From Nocardioides sp. (lineage in GTDB: Bacteria > Actinomycetota > Actinomycetes > Propionibacteriales > Nocardioidaceae): a stretch of 39,031 bases of DNA. Positions within the stretch are counted from its first letter, which is position 1. Every line of letters begins with the position of its first letter. Below are positions 17,813 through 24,573 of this stretch, in pieces. Location: contig JAICSK010000004.1 in assembly GCA_025936915.1 (NCBI GenBank), positions 1-39,031 of the forward strand, written 5' to 3'. The notes beneath the pieces were generated by a model. It had not been told where the DNA came from. It was given only the letters and a program-made list of their open reading frames with translations, and searched no databases. A program made the position numbers and the translations under genes.

Positions 17813-18760
17813 TCAGCCGGTGTGCACCAGGTCGATCCGGGTCTCGGTCTGCTGCCACCCGACGTCGGCGAAGGCGCGCGCCATCGGGACGTTGTCGTTG
17901 TCGGTGTCCGCGATCAGGGTCGTCGCGCCACCGGCCAGCAGCTGTCGCGTCTGCCAGGCGAGCAGCTGGCGCGCGTAACCCTGTCCGCGCTGGTCGCGCA
18001 CGACGCCGACGAAGAGGACCACGGCCCGGCCATTGCGTCGTACGTCGCCGGAGACCAGGCCGACGACCTCGCCGCTCTCGTCGAGGGCCAGGTGGATCCG
18101 GTCGACCGGGTCGGAGGTGACCAGCTCCTCGAGGCTCTCCGCGCAGGCCGCGTCGAAGCCGAGGCGCTCGACCAGGTCGCTGTCGTGGGCGTCGAGGGTG
18201 TCCCGCATGACCTCGCGATGGCAGGCGACCAGCCGCGGGTCGTGCCGATCGCTGAGGTGGTCGAACCGCAAGGCGGTCGGTACGCCGGAGCCGATCCCCG
18301 GAGGAGGCTCGAACTCGTAGTGCCGGCGCTCGACGAGGAGCCGCCAGTTTGCCTCTCGCAGGGCATCGACGAGCGGAGCGATCGACGCGTCGTCGACGGT
18401 GGTCCCGGGTGGGGCGAACAGCAGGACCTCCTCGTCGTTGCCGGCGACGGTCTGCTCCGTGACGTGCCGGATCAGCGACCGCGCCACCTCCGGGTCGTCC
18501 GGTACGCCGAAGACGTCGAGCAGCAGTCGGTCGTCGGGGGTACCGAACGCTCCGACGACTCCGAGCGTCGTGGGGTCGCCGGCACGCCGGACACCCCAGA
18601 CCCACTCGGGCCGCCGTCGGCCGGCACCGAAGTACTCGGAGAGGTTGTCGTCGGAGCGGATCCGGCGCTGGGTGAGCGAGTCGACCGGCATCGGGCTCGC
18701 AGCGAGCAAGGACCGGGCCTCCGCGACGCAGGCAGGGTGGAAGAACTCGAGATCGGACAA
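17813..18760 (-). CDS. GNAT acetyltransferase, last gene of the cobalamin-riboswitch operon
   Basis: 315 residues with two GNAT-like halves. The C-terminal half has the acetyl-CoA motif: RAVVLFVGVVRDQRGQGYARQLL, then TLIADTDNDNVPMARAFADVGW. The N-terminal half (about 1-150) is degenerate. The acceptor substrate is unknown. The start is TTG (18760), with GAGGA eight bases upstream overlapping the stop codon of the S-component gene; the two genes are ten bases apart, so translation is probably coupled. No other start fits as well. Its place behind the ECF genes suggests riboswitch control, but a link to cobalamin is only positional. Confidence 0.85.
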   Translation of the reverse strand: MSDLEFFHPACVAEARSLLAASPMPVDSLTQRRIRSDDNLSEYFGAGRRRPEWVWGVRRAGDPTTLGVVGAFGTPDDRLLLDVFGVPDDPEVARSLIRHVTEQTVAGNDEEVLLFAPPGTTVDDASIAPLVDALREANWRLLVERRHYEFEPPPGIGSGVPTALRFDHLSDRHDPRLVACHREVMRDTLDAHDSDLVERLGFDAACAESLEELVTSDPVDRIHLALDESGEVVGLVSGDVRRNGRAVVLFVGVVRDQRGQGYARQLLAWQTRQLLAGGATTLIADTDNDNVPMARAFADVGWQQTETRIDLVHTG

Positions 18761-18770
18761 CAGGGGTTCC

Positions 18771-19688
18771 TCAGATCTGGGAACCGGCCTCGCTGCGGAG
18801 GCCGGGAGACGGAGTGGACATCGTGGCCTCCTTCCTGTGCTCGTCGGGGCTGACGACGCTAGGGCTCCCCGACGACGGGGGCAACGCCTTTTCGACGGTG
18901 CCGACGACCACCACCCGACGGGCCGCCCGCCGCAACGTCGTGAGCACCGCCGGACCGAGTACGACGATCGCGACGGCGTTGGTGACCGCCCGCCCGGTGT
19001 CGAACGACCCGGTCGAGCTGATCAGGGTGTAGGCCAGGAAGCGATGCAGGTTCGCCGTCATCGGGTCGCCCGGCACGAACGCGAGCCCGGTGTGCCCGGG
19101 CACGGCGATCCCGAGCACGAACGGCCACGACGAGAGGTTGAGCAGCAGCCCGTAGACGTACGCCGCCACCACGCCGTACGCCGCCAGCATCGCGATCTCG
19201 GTCCGGCCGCCGACGCGTCGCGGCAGGAGGCCCGCGCCCATCCCGACCCACGCCGAGACCAGCATCTGGTAGGGCAACCACGGTCCGACGCCCCCCGTCA
19301 GCAGCGCCGATGCGAACAACGACGTGCACCCGAGGACGAAGCCGAACCCCGGCCCGAACACCCGTCCGGCCAGGATCAGCAGGAAGAACACCAGCTCCAC
19401 TCCGGCGGTTCCGGGCGAGACGCCGCGGAGCACGGCGTTCACCGCTGACAGCACGCCGAGCACGGCCAGCACCCGCGGGTCGAGCCCGCCCTCGGTGACC
19501 TCGGCCAGGACGACCACGATCACGACGGGCAACAGCGCCAGGAACACGAACGGTGGTCCGACCTGTCCGCCCGACGACTGTCGCACCAGCAACGGCCAGA
19601 GCAGCATCATCAGCCCGGCGACCGAGGCCACCCCGAGCACCAGGGCGGAGCGTCTCGACAGCGGGACGGCGCGGTTCACCCGGTTCAT
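18771..19688 (-). CDS. cbrT: ECF transporter S component, predicted cobalamin-specific
   Basis: 305 residues with a hydrophobic core of about 6-8 helices (about 12-265): GLMMLLWPLLVRQ, VFLALLPVVIVVVLAEVTEG, FFLLILAGRVFGPGFGFVLGCTS, PYQMLVSAWVGMGAGLLP and MLAAYGVVAAYVYGLLLNLS. The pattern fits substrate-binding S components (ECF_trnsprt/CbrT type). The C-terminal 50 residues are polar. Its ATG overlaps the stop of the ATPase gene (ATGA). The cobalamin riboswitch at the head of the operon makes B12 or another corrinoid the best substrate guess; the protein sequence alone would not prove it. Symbol is tentative. Confidence 0.82.
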   Translation of the reverse strand: MNRVNRAVPLSRRSALVLGVASVAGLMMLLWPLLVRQSSGGQVGPPFVFLALLPVVIVVVLAEVTEGGLDPRVLAVLGVLSAVNAVLRGVSPGTAGVELVFFLLILAGRVFGPGFGFVLGCTSLFASALLTGGVGPWLPYQMLVSAWVGMGAGLLPRRVGGRTEIAMLAAYGVVAAYVYGLLLNLSSWPFVLGIAVPGHTGLAFVPGDPMTANLHRFLAYTLISSTGSFDTGRAVTNAVAIVVLGPAVLTTLRRAARRVVVVGTVEKALPPSSGSPSVVSPDEHRKEATMSTPSPGLRSEAGSQI

Positions 19689-21262
19689 CTCGGGGTCACC
19701 TCCGACACCCGGAGCCATCCCTGCCCGAGGATCTTGGTGACCTGGGGAGCGAACGCCGGCGACCCGGCCAGCACCTCACGCGTCGGACCGTCCGACACGA
19801 CCTCACCCTCGGCCAGGACGACGACCTCGTCGGCCGCCTCGGCCGCGAACTCCACGTCGTGGGTCGCGACCATCACCGCGTGACCGTCGTCGGCCAGCCG
19901 ACGAAGCACCTCGACGAGCTCTGCCTTCGCCGGGTAGTCGAGTCCTCGGGTCGGTTCGTCGAGCAGGAGCACCGGTGGCGACGTCACCAGGACGACCACG
20001 AGCGCCAGCGCCAGCCGCTGACCCTCCGACAGGTCACGCGGATGAGCGTCATCGGGTACGCCGGGCACGAGCCGGTCGAGCAGCTTGCGGCACTCCCCCG
20101 AGCCCGGCCGCCCGGCGCCGCTGTCCGCCGCTGCGCACTCCTCGGCCACGGACTCGAGGTAGAGCAGGTCCGCGGCGGTCTGCGGGACGAGCCCGACCAG
20201 CGCCCGTCGACGGGCGGCGGGCTCGTCGGCCGGGTCGACGCCACCCACTGCGAGCGAGCCCGAGCGTCGTCCCCGCGTCCCCTGAACCGTCCACAGCAGG
20301 GTCGACTTGCCGGAGCCGTTGCGGCCCATCAGCACGGTCACGGTGCCGGGTCGGAGCGACACCGACGCCTCGCGCAGCGCGACCGTGCCCCCGCGGACGA
20401 CGGTCAGCGCGCGACCCGCCACCACCGGCTCCTGCGTCGACCGCGCCGCCACCGGGGGCGGCTGGCCCACGTCCACCCCGCGTGCGAGGCGGCGCGCGTC
20501 GCGCACCGTCAACGGCGGCGGCGACCAGCCCAGCGCGCGCCCCAGCTCCACGATCGGGGGTACGACGGGTGAGGACGCGAGCACGTCGGCCGGCGTACCG
20601 ACGCAGACGGTGCCGTCGCCGGGCAACAGGGCCATCCGGTCGGCGAACGGCACGACCCGCTCGAGCCGGTGCTCGGCCATCAACACCGACACGCCGAGGT
20701 CGTGGACCAGGCGAGTCAGGGTGGCCAGCACCTCCTCGGCCGCCGTCGGGTCGAGGGCCGACGTGGGCTCGTCGAGCACGAGAACACGAGGGTGCATCGT
20801 CAGCACCGAGCCGATCGCCACGCGTTGCTGCTCACCACCCGACAGGGTTCGCAGATCCCGGGAGCGCAGCGAGGCGATCCCGAGCAGGTCGAGGGTCTCC
20901 TCGACCCGCCGACGCATCGTGTCGGGGGCGAGCCCGAGCTGCTCCATCCCGTAGGCGAGCTCCTCCTCGACGGAGTCGGTGACGAACCCGGACGCCGGGT
21001 CCTGGCCGACGTACCCGATGACGTCGGCGCGCTCGCGGGGAGGCTGGAGCACGACCGACCGCCCGTCGACCAACACGTCCCCGGACAAGGTCCCGCCCGA
21101 GAAGCGCGGCACGAGTCCCGTCACCACGCCCAACAGGGTCGACTTCCCGACACCGGTGCGGCCCGAGACGAGCATCAGCTCGCCCTCGTCGAGGACGAGG
21201 TCGACGTCGCGCAGGATGGGGCTGTGGTCGTACCCGAAGCCGACGTTGCGGAGCTCGATCAC
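19685..21262 (-). CDS. cbrU: Fused double ATPase of an ECF transporter (EcfA1-EcfA2)
   Basis: 525 residues with two ABC ATPase domains. Domain 1 (about 1-230): Walker A GRTGVGKST, signature LSGGEQQR, Walker B VLVLDEPTSALD, switch H in MAEHRLERV. Domain 2 (about 280-520): Walker A GRNGSGKST, a changed signature LSEGQRLAL, Walker B VLLLDEPTRGLD, switch H in VATHDVEF. Most ECF systems use two separate ATPases; fusion is known in the CbrU type. It energises the membrane components EcfT and S. GTG start at 21262 overlaps the EcfT stop (GTGA), so translation is coupled. Long upstream extensions of this frame overlap ecfT and are rejected. Confidence 0.93.
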   Translation of the reverse strand: MIELRNVGFGYDHSPILRDVDLVLDEGELMLVSGRTGVGKSTLLGVVTGLVPRFSGGTLSGDVLVDGRSVVLQPPRERADVIGYVGQDPASGFVTDSVEEELAYGMEQLGLAPDTMRRRVEETLDLLGIASLRSRDLRTLSGGEQQRVAIGSVLTMHPRVLVLDEPTSALDPTAAEEVLATLTRLVHDLGVSVLMAEHRLERVVPFADRMALLPGDGTVCVGTPADVLASSPVVPPIVELGRALGWSPPPLTVRDARRLARGVDVGQPPPVAARSTQEPVVAGRALTVVRGGTVALREASVSLRPGTVTVLMGRNGSGKSTLLWTVQGTRGRRSGSLAVGGVDPADEPAARRRALVGLVPQTAADLLYLESVAEECAAADSGAGRPGSGECRKLLDRLVPGVPDDAHPRDLSEGQRLALALVVVLVTSPPVLLLDEPTRGLDYPAKAELVEVLRRLADDGHAVMVATHDVEFAAEAADEVVVLAEGEVVSDGPTREVLAGSPAFAPQVTKILGQGWLRVSEVTPR

Positions 21263-22374
21263 GACGCACCTGCCGGGAGCGAGGCGCCCTCGGGCCGGGG
21301 CGAGCAGAGGGCACCGCCGACCGCCACGACGGCCGCGACCAGTGCCAGCAGGCTGACCGTCGGCGACACGGTCACCGACGGGTAGGCGATCGCGAGCTGG
21401 TGCCGCGAGATCCACCACCCGGAGGTGCCGACCGCGACGCCCGAGGCCGCCACGACCAGCTCGGGCCACCGCCAGCGGTCGGGGCGGTAGCGGCTGCGCC
21501 CGACCCGACGCCCGGCCAGCCGGATCGCGACGACGGACACACCGACGCCCAGCACGAGCATCGGCCGGCCGAGCCAGGCGGGGGTGGTCCGGTCGAGGCC
21601 GCCGTACACCCCGACCGCGACGGCGCACAGCCCGAGCAGCATCAACCCGCCGGTGGTACGACGTTCGCGCGGCGTGGCACCGCTCGTGCGCCCATAGCCA
21701 CGGGTGTCCATCCCGGCTGCCAGCGACAGCGACCGTTCGAGGGCGTCCTCGAGCACCGGGACCAGGAGGCGTCGGAGCTTGCGGACCCGCCCGCTGTCCC
21801 CGCCCCGCAACAGCTGGGCCGCCCGGACCCTGCGGACGCTGTCCGCGAGCTGCGGCAGCACGGTCACCGCGACCACGAGCGCGCTGCCGATCTCGTAGAG
21901 CGCCGGCGGGACCGAGCGCAGGAGCCGCTTCGGGTTGGCAAGGGCATTGGCCGAGCCGACGCAGATCACGATCGCCGCGAGCCGTAGCCCGTCGTACAGC
22001 CCGGCGAGCAGCGCCTCCTGGGTGACGGGCCCGAGCAGCCGCAGCCCGAGCGTCCAGTGCGGCAGCGGGATCTGCGGCAGGTGCAGGAGCACCCGTCCCC
22101 CGTCGCCGCCGCCGACGAGCACGCGGAACAGCACGCGCACCACGACGATCACGACGCCGAGCCAGAGATAGATCCGGAACGAGTCGGCCCAGGGCTGGGC
22201 GCTGCGTCGCGCCGCCACGGCCAGGCAGGCGACGCCGATCAGGAGCAGGAGGAGGTACGGGTTGGTCGTGAACGACGCCGCCGTCGCCAGCCCGAGCGCC
22301 CACAGCCACCACGCGACCGGGTGCAGGTCTCGAGGCAGCCGTGCGGCGCCGAGCGCGGCGACGCGGCGGTTCAT
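21259..22374 (-). CDS. cbrV: ECF transporter transmembrane component (EcfT)
   Basis: 371 residues. N-terminal helices (AVAWWLWALGLATAASF-like opening, then YLLLLLIGVACLAVAARR and YLWLGVVIVVVRVLFRVL), a cytoplasmic coupling region with SVPPALYEIGSALVVAVTVLPQLADSVRRVRAAQLLRGG and the conserved MDTRGYGR element (the Ala-Arg-Gly type coupling motif), then three to four C-terminal helices. It joins the S component to the ATPase pair. ATG at 22374 overlaps the stop of the preceding gene in the string TGATG. Confidence 0.9.
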   Translation of the reverse strand: MNRRVAALGAARLPRDLHPVAWWLWALGLATAASFTTNPYLLLLLIGVACLAVAARRSAQPWADSFRIYLWLGVVIVVVRVLFRVLVGGGDGGRVLLHLPQIPLPHWTLGLRLLGPVTQEALLAGLYDGLRLAAIVICVGSANALANPKRLLRSVPPALYEIGSALVVAVTVLPQLADSVRRVRAAQLLRGGDSGRVRKLRRLLVPVLEDALERSLSLAAGMDTRGYGRTSGATPRERRTTGGLMLLGLCAVAVGVYGGLDRTTPAWLGRPMLVLGVGVSVVAIRLAGRRVGRSRYRPDRWRWPELVVAASGVAVGTSGWWISRHQLAIAYPSVTVSPTVSLLALVAAVVAVGGALCSPRPEGASLPAGAS

Positions 22375-23234
22375 CAGCCGCCGCTTCGTCGTCGTAGCAG
22401 CAGAACGGCCCCGGTGCCGGCGAACAACGCGGCGATCGCGACCGGCGCGACCCATCCGGGCAGACCTCCGGAGCCGTTCGACCCGTCGGAGGCAGCAGCC
22501 ACCTGGGCGACCGACCCGGCGGCGACCGTGCCGTCCGCGCCGTGGGGACGGTGTGCCTTCGGGCCCTTCGACGACCGGTCGTGGTGCCGCTTGCCGTGGC
22601 CGACACCCGCCCGGCTCGCCGAGGTCGGGAGCGAGCCCGGTGTGGCGGTCGAGCCGGGGTCGGCGGCAGCCGTCGTCGACGGCCCGGATCCGGGCGAGCC
22701 GGACGGATGGGAGCCACCGGACGGCTTTGAGGTGGGACGCGTGCTCGGCGAGGACGACGGCGACGAGGTGCGGTGCGCGGTCGGAGCGACCCGCGGCTTC
22801 GCCTGGCTCGACTGGCCCTGCCACGAGAGGGCGACGTACCCACCGTCGGGCACCTTGAGCGAGCTCACCCCGACCGAGGCGTACTGCCAGGTGCCGGACT
22901 TCCCGTCCGACCACCACAGGGACCAGTACGCGTCCTGCGGTGGCGTCTGCGCGCACTGCGACTGGGGTACGCCGTCCACCTGGCACACGAACGCCTCGCC
23001 GTGGACGTAGGTCAGCGCGTGGCCGGCGTCGGTGAACTGGGCATCGGCGTACTCCCCCGCGCCCCCCGCGTCACAGAACGTCGACACCCCTCCCCCCAGC
23101 TGGTGGAAGTCGACGACGACCGAGACCCCTGACGCCGTGCTGCAGGTCGATGCGTGAGCGGGCGCCGGTACGACGACGCCTGTCGCCGCGACCGCGATGG
23201 TCGCGGCGACGAGGCGTACGGCGTGACGCAGCAC
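22374..23234 (-). CDS. Membrane-anchored SCO2322/DUF4430-like protein (transcobalamin beta-domain-like)
   Basis: 286 residues. Signal peptide (about 1-28, cleavage after PAHA); a beta-rich domain (about 29-135) with cysteines near its start and in FVCQVDGVPQSQCAQ; a Ser/Pro/Thr-rich linker (about 140-215) with a His-rich patch GHGKRHHDRSSKG; and a C-terminal helix (about 258-280) followed by LLRRRSGG, a membrane anchor. The segment YWSLWWSDG, then WQYASVGVSSLKVPDGGYVALSW, has the pattern of DUF4430 and of the beta domain of transcobalamin and intrinsic factor. GTG start three bases after the upstream stop. I infer a surface protein that binds corrinoid with the alpha-barrel partner. Homology here is remote and made by eye. 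Confidence 0.7.
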   Translation of the reverse strand: MLRHAVRLVAATIAVAATGVVVPAPAHASTCSTASGVSVVVDFHQLGGGVSTFCDAGGAGEYADAQFTDAGHALTYVHGEAFVCQVDGVPQSQCAQTPPQDAYWSLWWSDGKSGTWQYASVGVSSLKVPDGGYVALSWQGQSSQAKPRVAPTAHRTSSPSSSPSTRPTSKPSGGSHPSGSPGSGPSTTAAADPGSTATPGSLPTSASRAGVGHGKRHHDRSSKGPKAHRPHGADGTVAAGSVAQVAAASDGSNGSGGLPGWVAPVAIAALFAGTGAVLLLRRRSGG

Positions 23235-23237
23235 GGG

Positions 23238-24329
23238 TCAGCAGCCGTGCCGGAACAGCAGAGCCGGAGCCGCTTGCGAGGTGGCGCGGCGCCACTGGTC
23301 CTGGGACTGGGTCGTGATGCCGTCCTTCAGGCCCGCCCGCAGCGCAGCGCGGTCGTAGGCGATCGCACCGCGCTGTCCGGCCAGCTTCGAGCCCGACGGC
23401 TGCGGGCCGACCTGGTAGGTCGCGACCCACGCCGCGGCCGCCTTCGCCGCCGAGCAGTGTCGCGTCAGTCCGAGCGCCCACCCGGCGAGACCGGTGCTGT
23501 TGGTGTTGGGCGTGGCCGTGCTGGTGCCACCGCTGAAGGCGCCGCTCCTGCGTTGCTGCGTCTGCAGCCAGGCCACCGCGTGCTTCAGCGCACCGCGGAG
23601 CCTGGCGTTCCCCTTGCTGGTCTTCCACAGCTGCACGACGGCGTACGACGTGGTGTCGGGGTCGGCGGGGCTCTTGGGGCCGCAGGACTGGTGGGACGAC
23701 CTGGGCTTGGAGAAGTTCAGCCGGAAGTATCCCTGACGGCACTGCTGCTCGAGCAGGAACCTGCGCGCCTTCCCGGCCTGGGAGCTCTTGGCGGCGGTGA
23801 GACCACGGACGGCCAGGATCTGGCCGATCGTGTTGGCGTTGTCCGTGATCCCGTTCGCCGGGTCCGCCACGTCGTGGATCCGACCCCTCGCCGGCCCCGA
23901 CGTGACCACGAGCCCGTTGAGCCGCTTGACCAGGTTGACGCCACCGAAGCTGCGCGGGTCGGCGTTGGTGACCTCGGTGAGGACGAGCAGCTTGGCCACG
24001 GCGCCGGCGAAGACCGCCGAGCTGCCGAAGTCGACACCGGTCGTGTAGCTGTCGACATGGGGCGCCAGGGCGTTCCTGATCTGACGCACGTCCGTGCGGT
24101 GACCTCCGACCGCGGTGAGTGCGAACGCGGTGTCGATGCTGAGCCCGTAGTCGTCGAAGTCGAACTGGTCGTTGTGGATCAGACCGTTGGTGAGCTGGTG
24201 CGAGAGCCAGTTGGCGGCGTGGTCCGCGGGAGCGGCCTGGGCTGCGCCCCCCGCGCCGATCACGGAGAGAACGAGGGCGGTCGCGACGACGCCGGAGCCG
24301 GCGCGTCGTACGACGGTGAGTCTGGACAT
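23238..24329 (-). CDS. Secreted alpha/alpha-barrel protein, prenyltransferase/squalene-oxidase-repeat type (transcobalamin alpha-domain-like)
   Basis: 363 residues. Signal peptide (about 1-33, cleavage near AAQA). The mature part consists of repeated helix pairs: GLSIDTAFALTAVGG, SSAVFAGAVAKLLVLTEV, ITDNANTIGQILAVRGL, DPDTTSYAVVQLWKT and TNSTGLAGWALGLTRHC. This is the alpha6/alpha6 toroid pattern shared by terpene cyclases, prenyltransferases and the B12-binding transcobalamin/intrinsic factor alpha domain. Catalytic DCTAE- or DxDD-type motifs of cyclases are absent, so binding is likelier than catalysis. Cysteines, including a C-terminal FRHGC, suggest disulfides. It is the first gene after the cobalamin riboswitch, with AAGGAAA as Shine-Dalgarno three bases before the ATG. 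Confidence 0.78.
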   Translation of the reverse strand: MSRLTVVRRAGSGVVATALVLSVIGAGGAAQAAPADHAANWLSHQLTNGLIHNDQFDFDDYGLSIDTAFALTAVGGHRTDVRQIRNALAPHVDSYTTGVDFGSSAVFAGAVAKLLVLTEVTNADPRSFGGVNLVKRLNGLVVTSGPARGRIHDVADPANGITDNANTIGQILAVRGLTAAKSSQAGKARRFLLEQQCRQGYFRLNFSKPRSSHQSCGPKSPADPDTTSYAVVQLWKTSKGNARLRGALKHAVAWLQTQQRRSGAFSGGTSTATPNTNSTGLAGWALGLTRHCSAAKAAAAWVATYQVGPQPSGSKLAGQRGAIAYDRAALRAGLKDGITTQSQDQWRRATSQAAPALLFRHGC

Positions 24330-24338
24330 GCTTTCCTT

Positions 24339-24391
24339 CCCGCTGCGACAGCGGGCAGGCGGCCCCGACGGGGCTGGGAACCCACCCGCTG
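24339..24391 (-). promoter_or_regulatory. Expression platform of the cobalamin riboswitch
   Basis: On the minus strand the order is CAGCGGG (24391-24385), CCCGCTG (24355-24349), CAGCGGG (24345-24339). The middle segment can pair with either copy. Pairing with the second copy gives a tight 7-bp hairpin with a 3-nt loop that ends right at the AAGGAAA Shine-Dalgarno (24338-24332) and may hinder translation; pairing with the first copy frees it. A GCCCCG/CGGGGC hairpin lies in between. No U-tract is present, so control of translation is likelier than termination. Confidence 0.65.
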
Positions 24392-24420
24392 CGTTCCTCG
24401 ACAGCGTGTGTTCGGGACGC

Positions 24421-24530
24421 GGCGCAGCAGGTGCTCCGGCTCACCGCGTCTCCACGAGAAGGACACGGCCTACGGTTGCGGGTCAGCGCCGGACTTCGAC
24501 CGGCTTCCCCCACCACGGGCGTGCTGGATG
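24421..24530 (-). ncRNA. Cobalamin riboswitch
   Basis: Minus strand. The aptamer core is present in order: GGGGGAAGCCGGTCGAAG then TCCGGC (hairpin GCCGG/CCGGC), the B12 box GGCGCTGACCCGCAACCGT (24490-24472), a variable stem region, and the 3' element GTGAGCCGGAGCACCTGC. CAGCA near the 5' end (24525-24521) can pair with TGCTG at the 3' end (24429-24425), closing the structure. This matches the consensus of cobalamin riboswitches (Rfam RF00174 type), which lower expression of B12 synthesis and uptake genes when adenosyl- or other cobalamins are plentiful. It heads the ECF operon 92 bases before the first start codon. Outer boundaries are approximate. Confidence 0.9.
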
Positions 24531-24542
24531 TTGATCAGGGGC

Positions 24543-24573
24543 AGGCTATCCCCTTCCCTGTCGCCGGGGACAA
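24543..24573 (-). promoter_or_regulatory. Promoter of the cobalamin ECF operon
   Basis: Minus strand: TTGTCC (24573-24568), a 19-bp spacer, TAGCCT (24548-24543). The predicted start near 24536 would put the riboswitch at the very 5' end of the transcript. With the AKR promoter, this accounts for the 310-bp gene-free stretch 24330-24639. Confidence 0.5.

Follow-up and report, generated by a model that had tools for sequence, protein, structure and literature searches.

What does an energy-coupling factor (ECF) importer take up when its operon begins with a cobalamin riboswitch and two genes for exported proteins, and what part do those two proteins play? This question is raised by a 39,031-nt stretch of Nocardioides sp. 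DNA (hereafter the window, meaning the whole stretch that was analysed), in which a riboswitch, two exported proteins that we call B and D, and the importer subunits EcfT, EcfA and S lie together on the minus strand. We read this operon as a cobalamin-riboswitch-controlled system for corrinoid capture and import in which B and D are the two halves of a transcobalamin-like binder, and we give this reading a probability of roughly three in four. The evidence is computational and consists of the genes, the riboswitch, the folds of the exported proteins, a neighbourhood conserved among relatives and natural fusions of B to D.

Layout of the operon and its riboswitch

Read 5′ to 3′ on the minus strand, the order is riboswitch, B, D, EcfT, EcfA, S and a GNAT-family gene. 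The riboswitch aptamer (24401..24532) lies 5′ of B (23238..24329), a secreted alpha/alpha-toroid protein of 363 aa, which is followed after a gap of 3 nt by D (22374..23234), an exported protein of 286 aa with a C-terminal membrane anchor and a predicted transcobalamin-like beta domain. The three importer genes then overlap their upstream neighbours by one to four bases: the ATG of the transmembrane component EcfT (21259..22374) at position 22374 overlaps the D stop (TGATG), the GTG start of EcfA (19685..21262) overlaps the EcfT stop (GTGA), and the ATG at 19688 of the S component, a substrate-binding membrane protein (18771..19688), overlaps the EcfA stop (ATGA). An earlier note on this DNA had listed a riboswitch, a secreted toroid protein, an anchored protein, EcfT, a fused ATPase and an S component with overlapping starts, and every one of these parts is present, at or near the positions it gave. 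EcfT matches CbiQ (PF02361, the Pfam "Cobalt transport protein" family) with 50.2 bits, EcfA carries two ABC ATPase cassettes in a single protein (ABC_tran, PF00005, 156.4 bits over two stretches), and the S core, which is preceded by N-terminal hydrophobic segments, scores just below the cut-offs of ECF_trnsprt (PF12822, 29.7 bits versus 30.7) and PF07155 (25.6 bits). EcfT, two ATPase domains and S are encoded together, which is the group I ECF arrangement.

The riboswitch was recognized by RF00174 at 24408-24532 in a search of 601 bases (29.7 bits, E 1e-5), without reaching the gathering score of 31.5; a scan of the whole window at the gathering threshold listed no RNA family because this compact switch scores just below it. 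A model built from the family itself (R1) places the window copy, which is one of its training members, at 24401-24530 with 120.6 bits. With 150 of 219 candidates scored, RF00174 had no other match at E≤1 in the draft genome of the host. At gathering, Rfam returned a cobalamin-family match at the operon in 12 of the 23 relatives' loci scanned (L032, L033, L037, L061, L102, L104 as RF01482, L137, L157, L146, L152, L160 and L165), with scores of 31.9-53.8 bits, and missed the operon's switch in the other 11. Folding of the leader RNA was not clearly better than that of shuffled sequences (z -1.34; 20/200 shuffles as good), and hence we claim no expression platform. A second cobalamin riboswitch, located within the operon between D and EcfT, is seen in L061 (9858-9993) and also in L062, L056 and L057.

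Folds of the two exported proteins

By eye, D consists of an export signal, a conserved Cys/Trp domain, a Ser/Pro/Gly-rich linker and a C-terminal membrane helix; among relatives' D frames a signal-like stretch was found in 80/81 and a C-terminal helix in 55/81, by crude hydropathy cuts. We modeled the core of D (about 23150-22782, 123 aa) with AF2 from 87 sequences (pLDDT 87.8, pTM 0.84), and the resulting strand/helix order is E-E-H-E-E-E-E. The top 19 PDB rows returned by Foldseek were 3u7z and chains of transcobalamin, haptocorrin and intrinsic factor. Likewise, the best 15 VIA rows comprised 14 entries of these three carriers (Z 9.8-10.8, aligned over 93-98 residues with an rmsd of 2.7-3.4) and 3u7z (Z 10.2), with the next unrelated fold at 5.9. 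As modeled, D has the beta-domain fold of transcobalamin, haptocorrin and intrinsic factor. Six of its residues (Cys26, Cys56, Pro62, Cys66, Trp76 and Trp88) are kept in 87/87 sequences. A set of loci from one sister genus carries a second, diverged D-like gene directly 3′ of S (L040:13431-13724, L041:14128-14460 and L043:13351-13671, and also L056, L057, L061 and L062).

B carries an export signal and, by eye, no C-terminal membrane helix. Its relatives have a signal-like stretch in 75/79 cases and a lipobox pattern in 10/79, the latter being a bare pattern match that seems spurious in three or more of the ten. The AF2 model of the B core (331 aa, 86 sequences; pLDDT 97.6, pTM 0.94) matched PDB toroids in VIA with Z up to 23; terpene-cyclase-type proteins came top, cellobiose epimerases and glycosidases followed close behind, and GH76/GH105 enzymes were also near. 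Transcobalamin was not among the 50 VIA rows, which carries no weight by itself. We are confident that the modeled B is an alpha/alpha toroid, a fold that it shares with transcobalamin but that is not specifically transcobalamin-like. The earlier note had likened both exported proteins to transcobalamin domains: the specific beta fold of D and the toroid of B stand, whereas it is not supported that B is related to the alpha domain of transcobalamin in particular, since terpene cyclases and sugar epimerases and hydrolases score higher.

The window B has one sub-threshold Pfam match (TED_complement, 16.6 bits versus 22) and scores 50.9 bits against NCBIfam SCO2321_fam (NF053823, cut-off 300). 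Cobalamin_bind (PF01122) matched 16 of the 86 B sequences at E≤1 (best 0.0015; five scores of 10.6-18.0 against a cut-off of 25), the window B not among them, and profile searches with B and D gave no transcobalamin among the matches listed (in one case the best 60 of 68). Polar positions kept in at least 79/86 sequences are Asp34, Lys81, Asn134, Gln138, Asp193, Thr195, Gln227, Asn243, Asn245, Thr247 and Gln320 (numbered in the 331-aa core), and the pair Cys165/Cys184 is kept equally often. Presumably polar contacts are spaced along the transcobalamin toroid in a similar way, which we take as a lead only. The DXDD motif of terpene cyclases occurs in 0/86 B sequences (window-core positions 191, 193 and 194 in alignment A6); because it lacks this motif and is exported, we reject a terpene cyclase as the identity of B.

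Fusion and covariation of B and D

In the window the toroid and the beta domain are encoded by separate genes, as the earlier note had it, and among relatives the two also occur in one uninterrupted frame, in both orders. The transcobalamin order, B then D, is found in L127 and L035, with 8 and 14 residues between the model matches; L127 reads by eye as signal peptide, toroid, beta domain, Pro/Ser linker and membrane helix. L150 has the same order with a membrane-like segment between B and D and is less clear. The reverse order is found in L066/L126 (apparently one record), L124, L134, L145 and L165, and with partial D matches in L160 and L074. Distances among B and among D sequences covary beyond what S accounts for (partial Mantel r 0.41, 0/2000 permutations, 62 loci), a result whose weight is limited by kinship and paralogues.

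Some B genes stand apart from the usual place. Eighteen lie outside the upstream operon position, and ten of these have a riboswitch of their own (searched at up to 1300 nt for minus-strand genes), two of the ten being D-B fusions. Six secreted B genes stand alone at a distance from the ECF operon and are each preceded by a separate cobalamin riboswitch: L102:1935-2801, L103:1606-2475, L121:1802-2671, L125:11473-12342, L140:10872-11741 (minus strand) and L106:16929-17813.

Conservation of the neighbourhood in relatives

When 147 genomes of the order were searched with B, 53 of them gave a match at E≤1e-6. In 51 of the 54 loci that we fetched from these relatives, the genes for B, D, EcfT, EcfA and S share one strand; B precedes S in 46 of these and lies only after it in 5. 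In L081, L082 and L084 a B match occurs without EcfT, EcfA or S. As a starting point independent of B and D, we compared the S alignment with 84,980 species genomes, which gave at least 537 relatives. The best 80 were kept, a choice that leans to close relatives, and 11 with less than 6 kb of upstream sequence were dropped, leaving 69 loci from Nocardioides, Amycolatopsis, Actinomadura, Streptomyces, Micromonospora, Kribbella, an Acidimicrobiia bacterium and others. EcfT and EcfA are each present in 69/69. D lies just before EcfT in 66 (missing in L105, L137 and L163) and anywhere in the locus in 67; B is upstream in 53 and within 9 kb in 60; a riboswitch is upstream in 67 (missing in L144 and L151) and within 600 nt of the B, D or EcfT domain start in 62. 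The B, D and riboswitch models were partly trained on these loci or the same genomes, so that the counts depend in part on the training sets; when only the order relatives were used to build the models, D again lay before EcfT in 66/69 and B within 9 kb in 60/69. The 51/54 order loci together with the 66/69 S-anchored loci rule out a chance neighbourhood, and the survey ties the B/D pair to cobalamin riboswitches and this ECF module, in line with the earlier note.

Related S proteins extend beyond this set. A sister clade of S, present in many genomes of the order and matching at 218-275 bits (for example L207-L214), has D-like matches, some of them weak, and cobalamin riboswitches nearby in some cases, and may be a second corrinoid-related ECF system. 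In further order loci a weak D match precedes EcfT (L209, 23 bits; L210, 19 bits; L214, 29 bits; L205, 26 bits), and L203, L211, L212, L213 and L215 have no D match before EcfT. At the other end of the window operon, the gene for a GNAT-family acetyltransferase (17813..18760; PF00583, 37.9 bits), omitted from the earlier note's description of this interval, begins 10 nt past S. The relative locus L032 has a counterpart at the matching position with 64% identity, and the gene is possibly co-transcribed with the operon.

Points against the reading and alternative explanations

Several observations weigh against a transcobalamin-like corrinoid importer, beginning with the fact that corrinoid binding, a B-D complex and transport are steps that we infer. 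In fold, B resembles terpene cyclases and sugar-active toroids more closely than it does transcobalamin, whose first Foldseek row stands at rank 49 (E 9.8e-4, TM 0.46). No B was found within 9 kb in 9/69 S-anchored loci (L105, L128, L129, L133, L137, L144, L152, L153 and L163), and in several order relatives the D upstream of EcfT has no accompanying B. The folds nearest to B (those of terpene cyclases, cellobiose epimerases and GH76/GH105 enzymes) and the loci with D but no detected B would suit a system in which D is the sole corrinoid receptor and B acts apart from it, either as an enzyme or as a partner that binds the cell wall or a glycan, co-regulated by happenstance. We consider this quite unlikely: several lineages have B and D joined in one chain, in both orders, and B lacks DXDD throughout, nearly always has a signal-like stretch, sometimes stands under its own cobalamin riboswitch and covaries with D. 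In the reading that we favor, the relatives with D and no detected B make D the probable core subunit, with B as a clamp added to it.

By sequence, D is also remote from the family with which the earlier note had linked it. The note had called the anchored protein DUF4430/SCO2322-like; its anchor and transcobalamin beta fold hold up, but Pfam DUF4430 (PF14478) was matched by 0/39 D domains at E≤1, hhalign of D against 26 DUF4430 domains was weak (E 4.7e-4, probability 33%), and the score against SCO2322_fam (NF040672) was 13.3 bits for a cut-off of 85. Streptomyces relatives reach up to 116 and 40 bits with SCO2321_fam and SCO2322_fam, still below the cut-offs of 300 and 85. Phylum-wide, the D profile matches 47/296 genomes at E≤1e-6 and DUF4430 matches 34/198, the host not being among the latter; its genome has no DUF4430 match. 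In G186:C203 and G317:C1, DUF4430 and the D family each have a match, in G186 within about 1.4 kb of each other, a possible link between the two branches.

Two further points concern substrate. RF00174 matches at E≤0.01 occur in 147/147 genomes of the order, so that only adjacency of the switch to the operon counts and not its presence. The named family nearest to S is of the folate type (18.3 bits versus a cut-off of 60), and the window S alone comes nearest to FolT chains (E 0.13). The S profile (A3) matched no PDB chain at E≤1, the presence of a CbrT chain in the searched set being unchecked. The earlier note's suggestion of a CbrT-type S component is not supported; as judged from its sequence, S belongs to no recognized family and gives no independent help on substrate. 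Cobalt importers can be controlled by B12 riboswitches, and EcfT belongs to the "Cobalt transport protein" family, so that the module might import another substrate controlled by B12 status, either cobalt or nickel as in CbiMNQO, or folate, given the FolT-type neighbours of S. However, neither CbiM nor CbiN is among the families listed for S, the folate match is far below its cut-off, and the extracellular partner D has a B12-carrier fold. On the strength of that fold and the sub-threshold folate match we reject a cobalt or folate importer, and regard any such substrate as highly improbable.

The host's B12 economy bears on the form of corrinoid imported. In the 3.44-Mb draft genome (94% complete), we found no CobJ match at E≤1e-10, an absence that is uncertain at this completeness, together with five B12-binding-domain matches and one cobalamin adenosyltransferase. 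From this gene content it is probable that the host relies on corrinoid taken up from outside. In the host family (52 of the 147 order genomes), the clade of S to which the operon belongs (348 bits or more, the next score being 274) is present in 21/22 genomes without strong CobJ and also in 27/30 with it, and the system is thus not confined to non-producers. The retention of the operon by CobJ producers agrees with an importer whose main substrate is not cobalamin itself but a fragment or precursor of a corrinoid (cobinamide, alpha-ribazole, dimethylbenzimidazole or another cobamide), as does the fact that a cobalamin riboswitch reports B12 status and not substrate; ECF-CbrT restores both cobalamin- and cobinamide-dependent growth according to the available text of its description (PMC5997447). 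We hold this to be unlikely, because the beta-domain fold is that of complete-corrinoid binders, a two-domain clamp would be large for a free base, and the host, without a CobJ match, has B12-binding domains and an adenosyltransferase.

Proposed mechanism

In the corrinoid-import model that we favor, low intracellular cobalamin would leave the riboswitch open and the operon on. D would be tethered to the membrane through its C-terminal helix and B would be secreted, or in some relatives held as a lipoprotein or by a membrane anchor. Outside the cell, B and D would clasp a corrinoid between them and deliver it to S, and S would carry it inward with power from EcfT and EcfA. In systems that lack B, the ligand may be held by D by itself, and the contribution of B would then be added affinity. 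A clamp made of two chains is physically reasonable, since the alpha and beta domains of human transcobalamin, made separately, co-elute only with cyanocobalamin (available text of PMC5599065). More tentatively, and with somewhat more doubt than confidence, we suggest a dedicated ECF binding protein whose two exported chains assemble only around the corrinoid and whose tethered half passes it to S, a reversible bacterial counterpart of animal transcobalamin, which is described in the available text of PMC11107200 as releasing B12 only after proteolytic degradation.

If the model holds, many actinobacteria, B12 producers and non-producers alike, share a route for corrinoid capture, and ECF importers gain a binding-protein step missing from the standard picture. 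The operon and its relatives would also serve as bacterial models, in two chains, of how transcobalamin and intrinsic factor assemble, and would hint at what the NCBI families SCO2321 and SCO2322, named but unexplained, do.

Comparison with known systems

The idea of such a capture step, which the earlier note had presented as new, was already put forward for related proteins: Burroughs, Balaji, Iyer and Aravind (2007) predicted B12 scavenging for toroid/beta-grasp surface proteins in CbiQ/CbiO operons (PMC1796856). In the available text of that paper the clade spans animals, low-GC Gram-positives, planctomycetes and euryarchaea, with actinobacteria not given, and no mention of a riboswitch was found. 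Consistent with that account as far as it is available, 30 DUF4430 loci of the phylum have an EcfT- or EcfA-like match within about 1.5 kb in 19 cases (the EcfA model may match any ABC ATPase) and a B-like match in 2. A literature search of open-licence papers gave, among the matches listed, no paper on the actinobacterial family and no experimental test of the systems predicted in 2007. The novelty lies in a divergent actinobacterial branch whose two domains are usually divided between separate chains, in the tie to a riboswitch and in an S component that fits no recognized family; the concept was predicted earlier.

Like the SLBB proteins of PMC1796856, as its available text describes them, the actinobacterial proteins combine an exported transcobalamin-type beta-grasp domain, toroid fusion in either order and operons with a CbiO-like ATPase and a CbiQ-like protein. 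Unlike them, D escapes the DUF4430 model, the domains are usually separate, and they come together with an S component under a cobalamin riboswitch. NCBIfam SCO2321_fam (NF053823) and SCO2322_fam (NF040672) are the best named models for B and D, with all scores below their cut-offs and with names that give no function. ECF-CbrT of Lactobacillus delbrueckii is likewise an ECF importer for corrinoids, but CbrT itself binds the substrate according to the available text (PMC5997447), whereas here extracellular proteins accompany an S component that is not recognizably CbrT by sequence. Vertebrate transcobalamin, intrinsic factor and haptocorrin share with the operon the pairing of a toroid with a beta domain of the same predicted fold, and L127 and L035 share with them the domain order and a short linker; the window system differs in having two chains, a membrane-tethered D, a toroid that is only generically similar, and an ECF importer in place of endocytosis.

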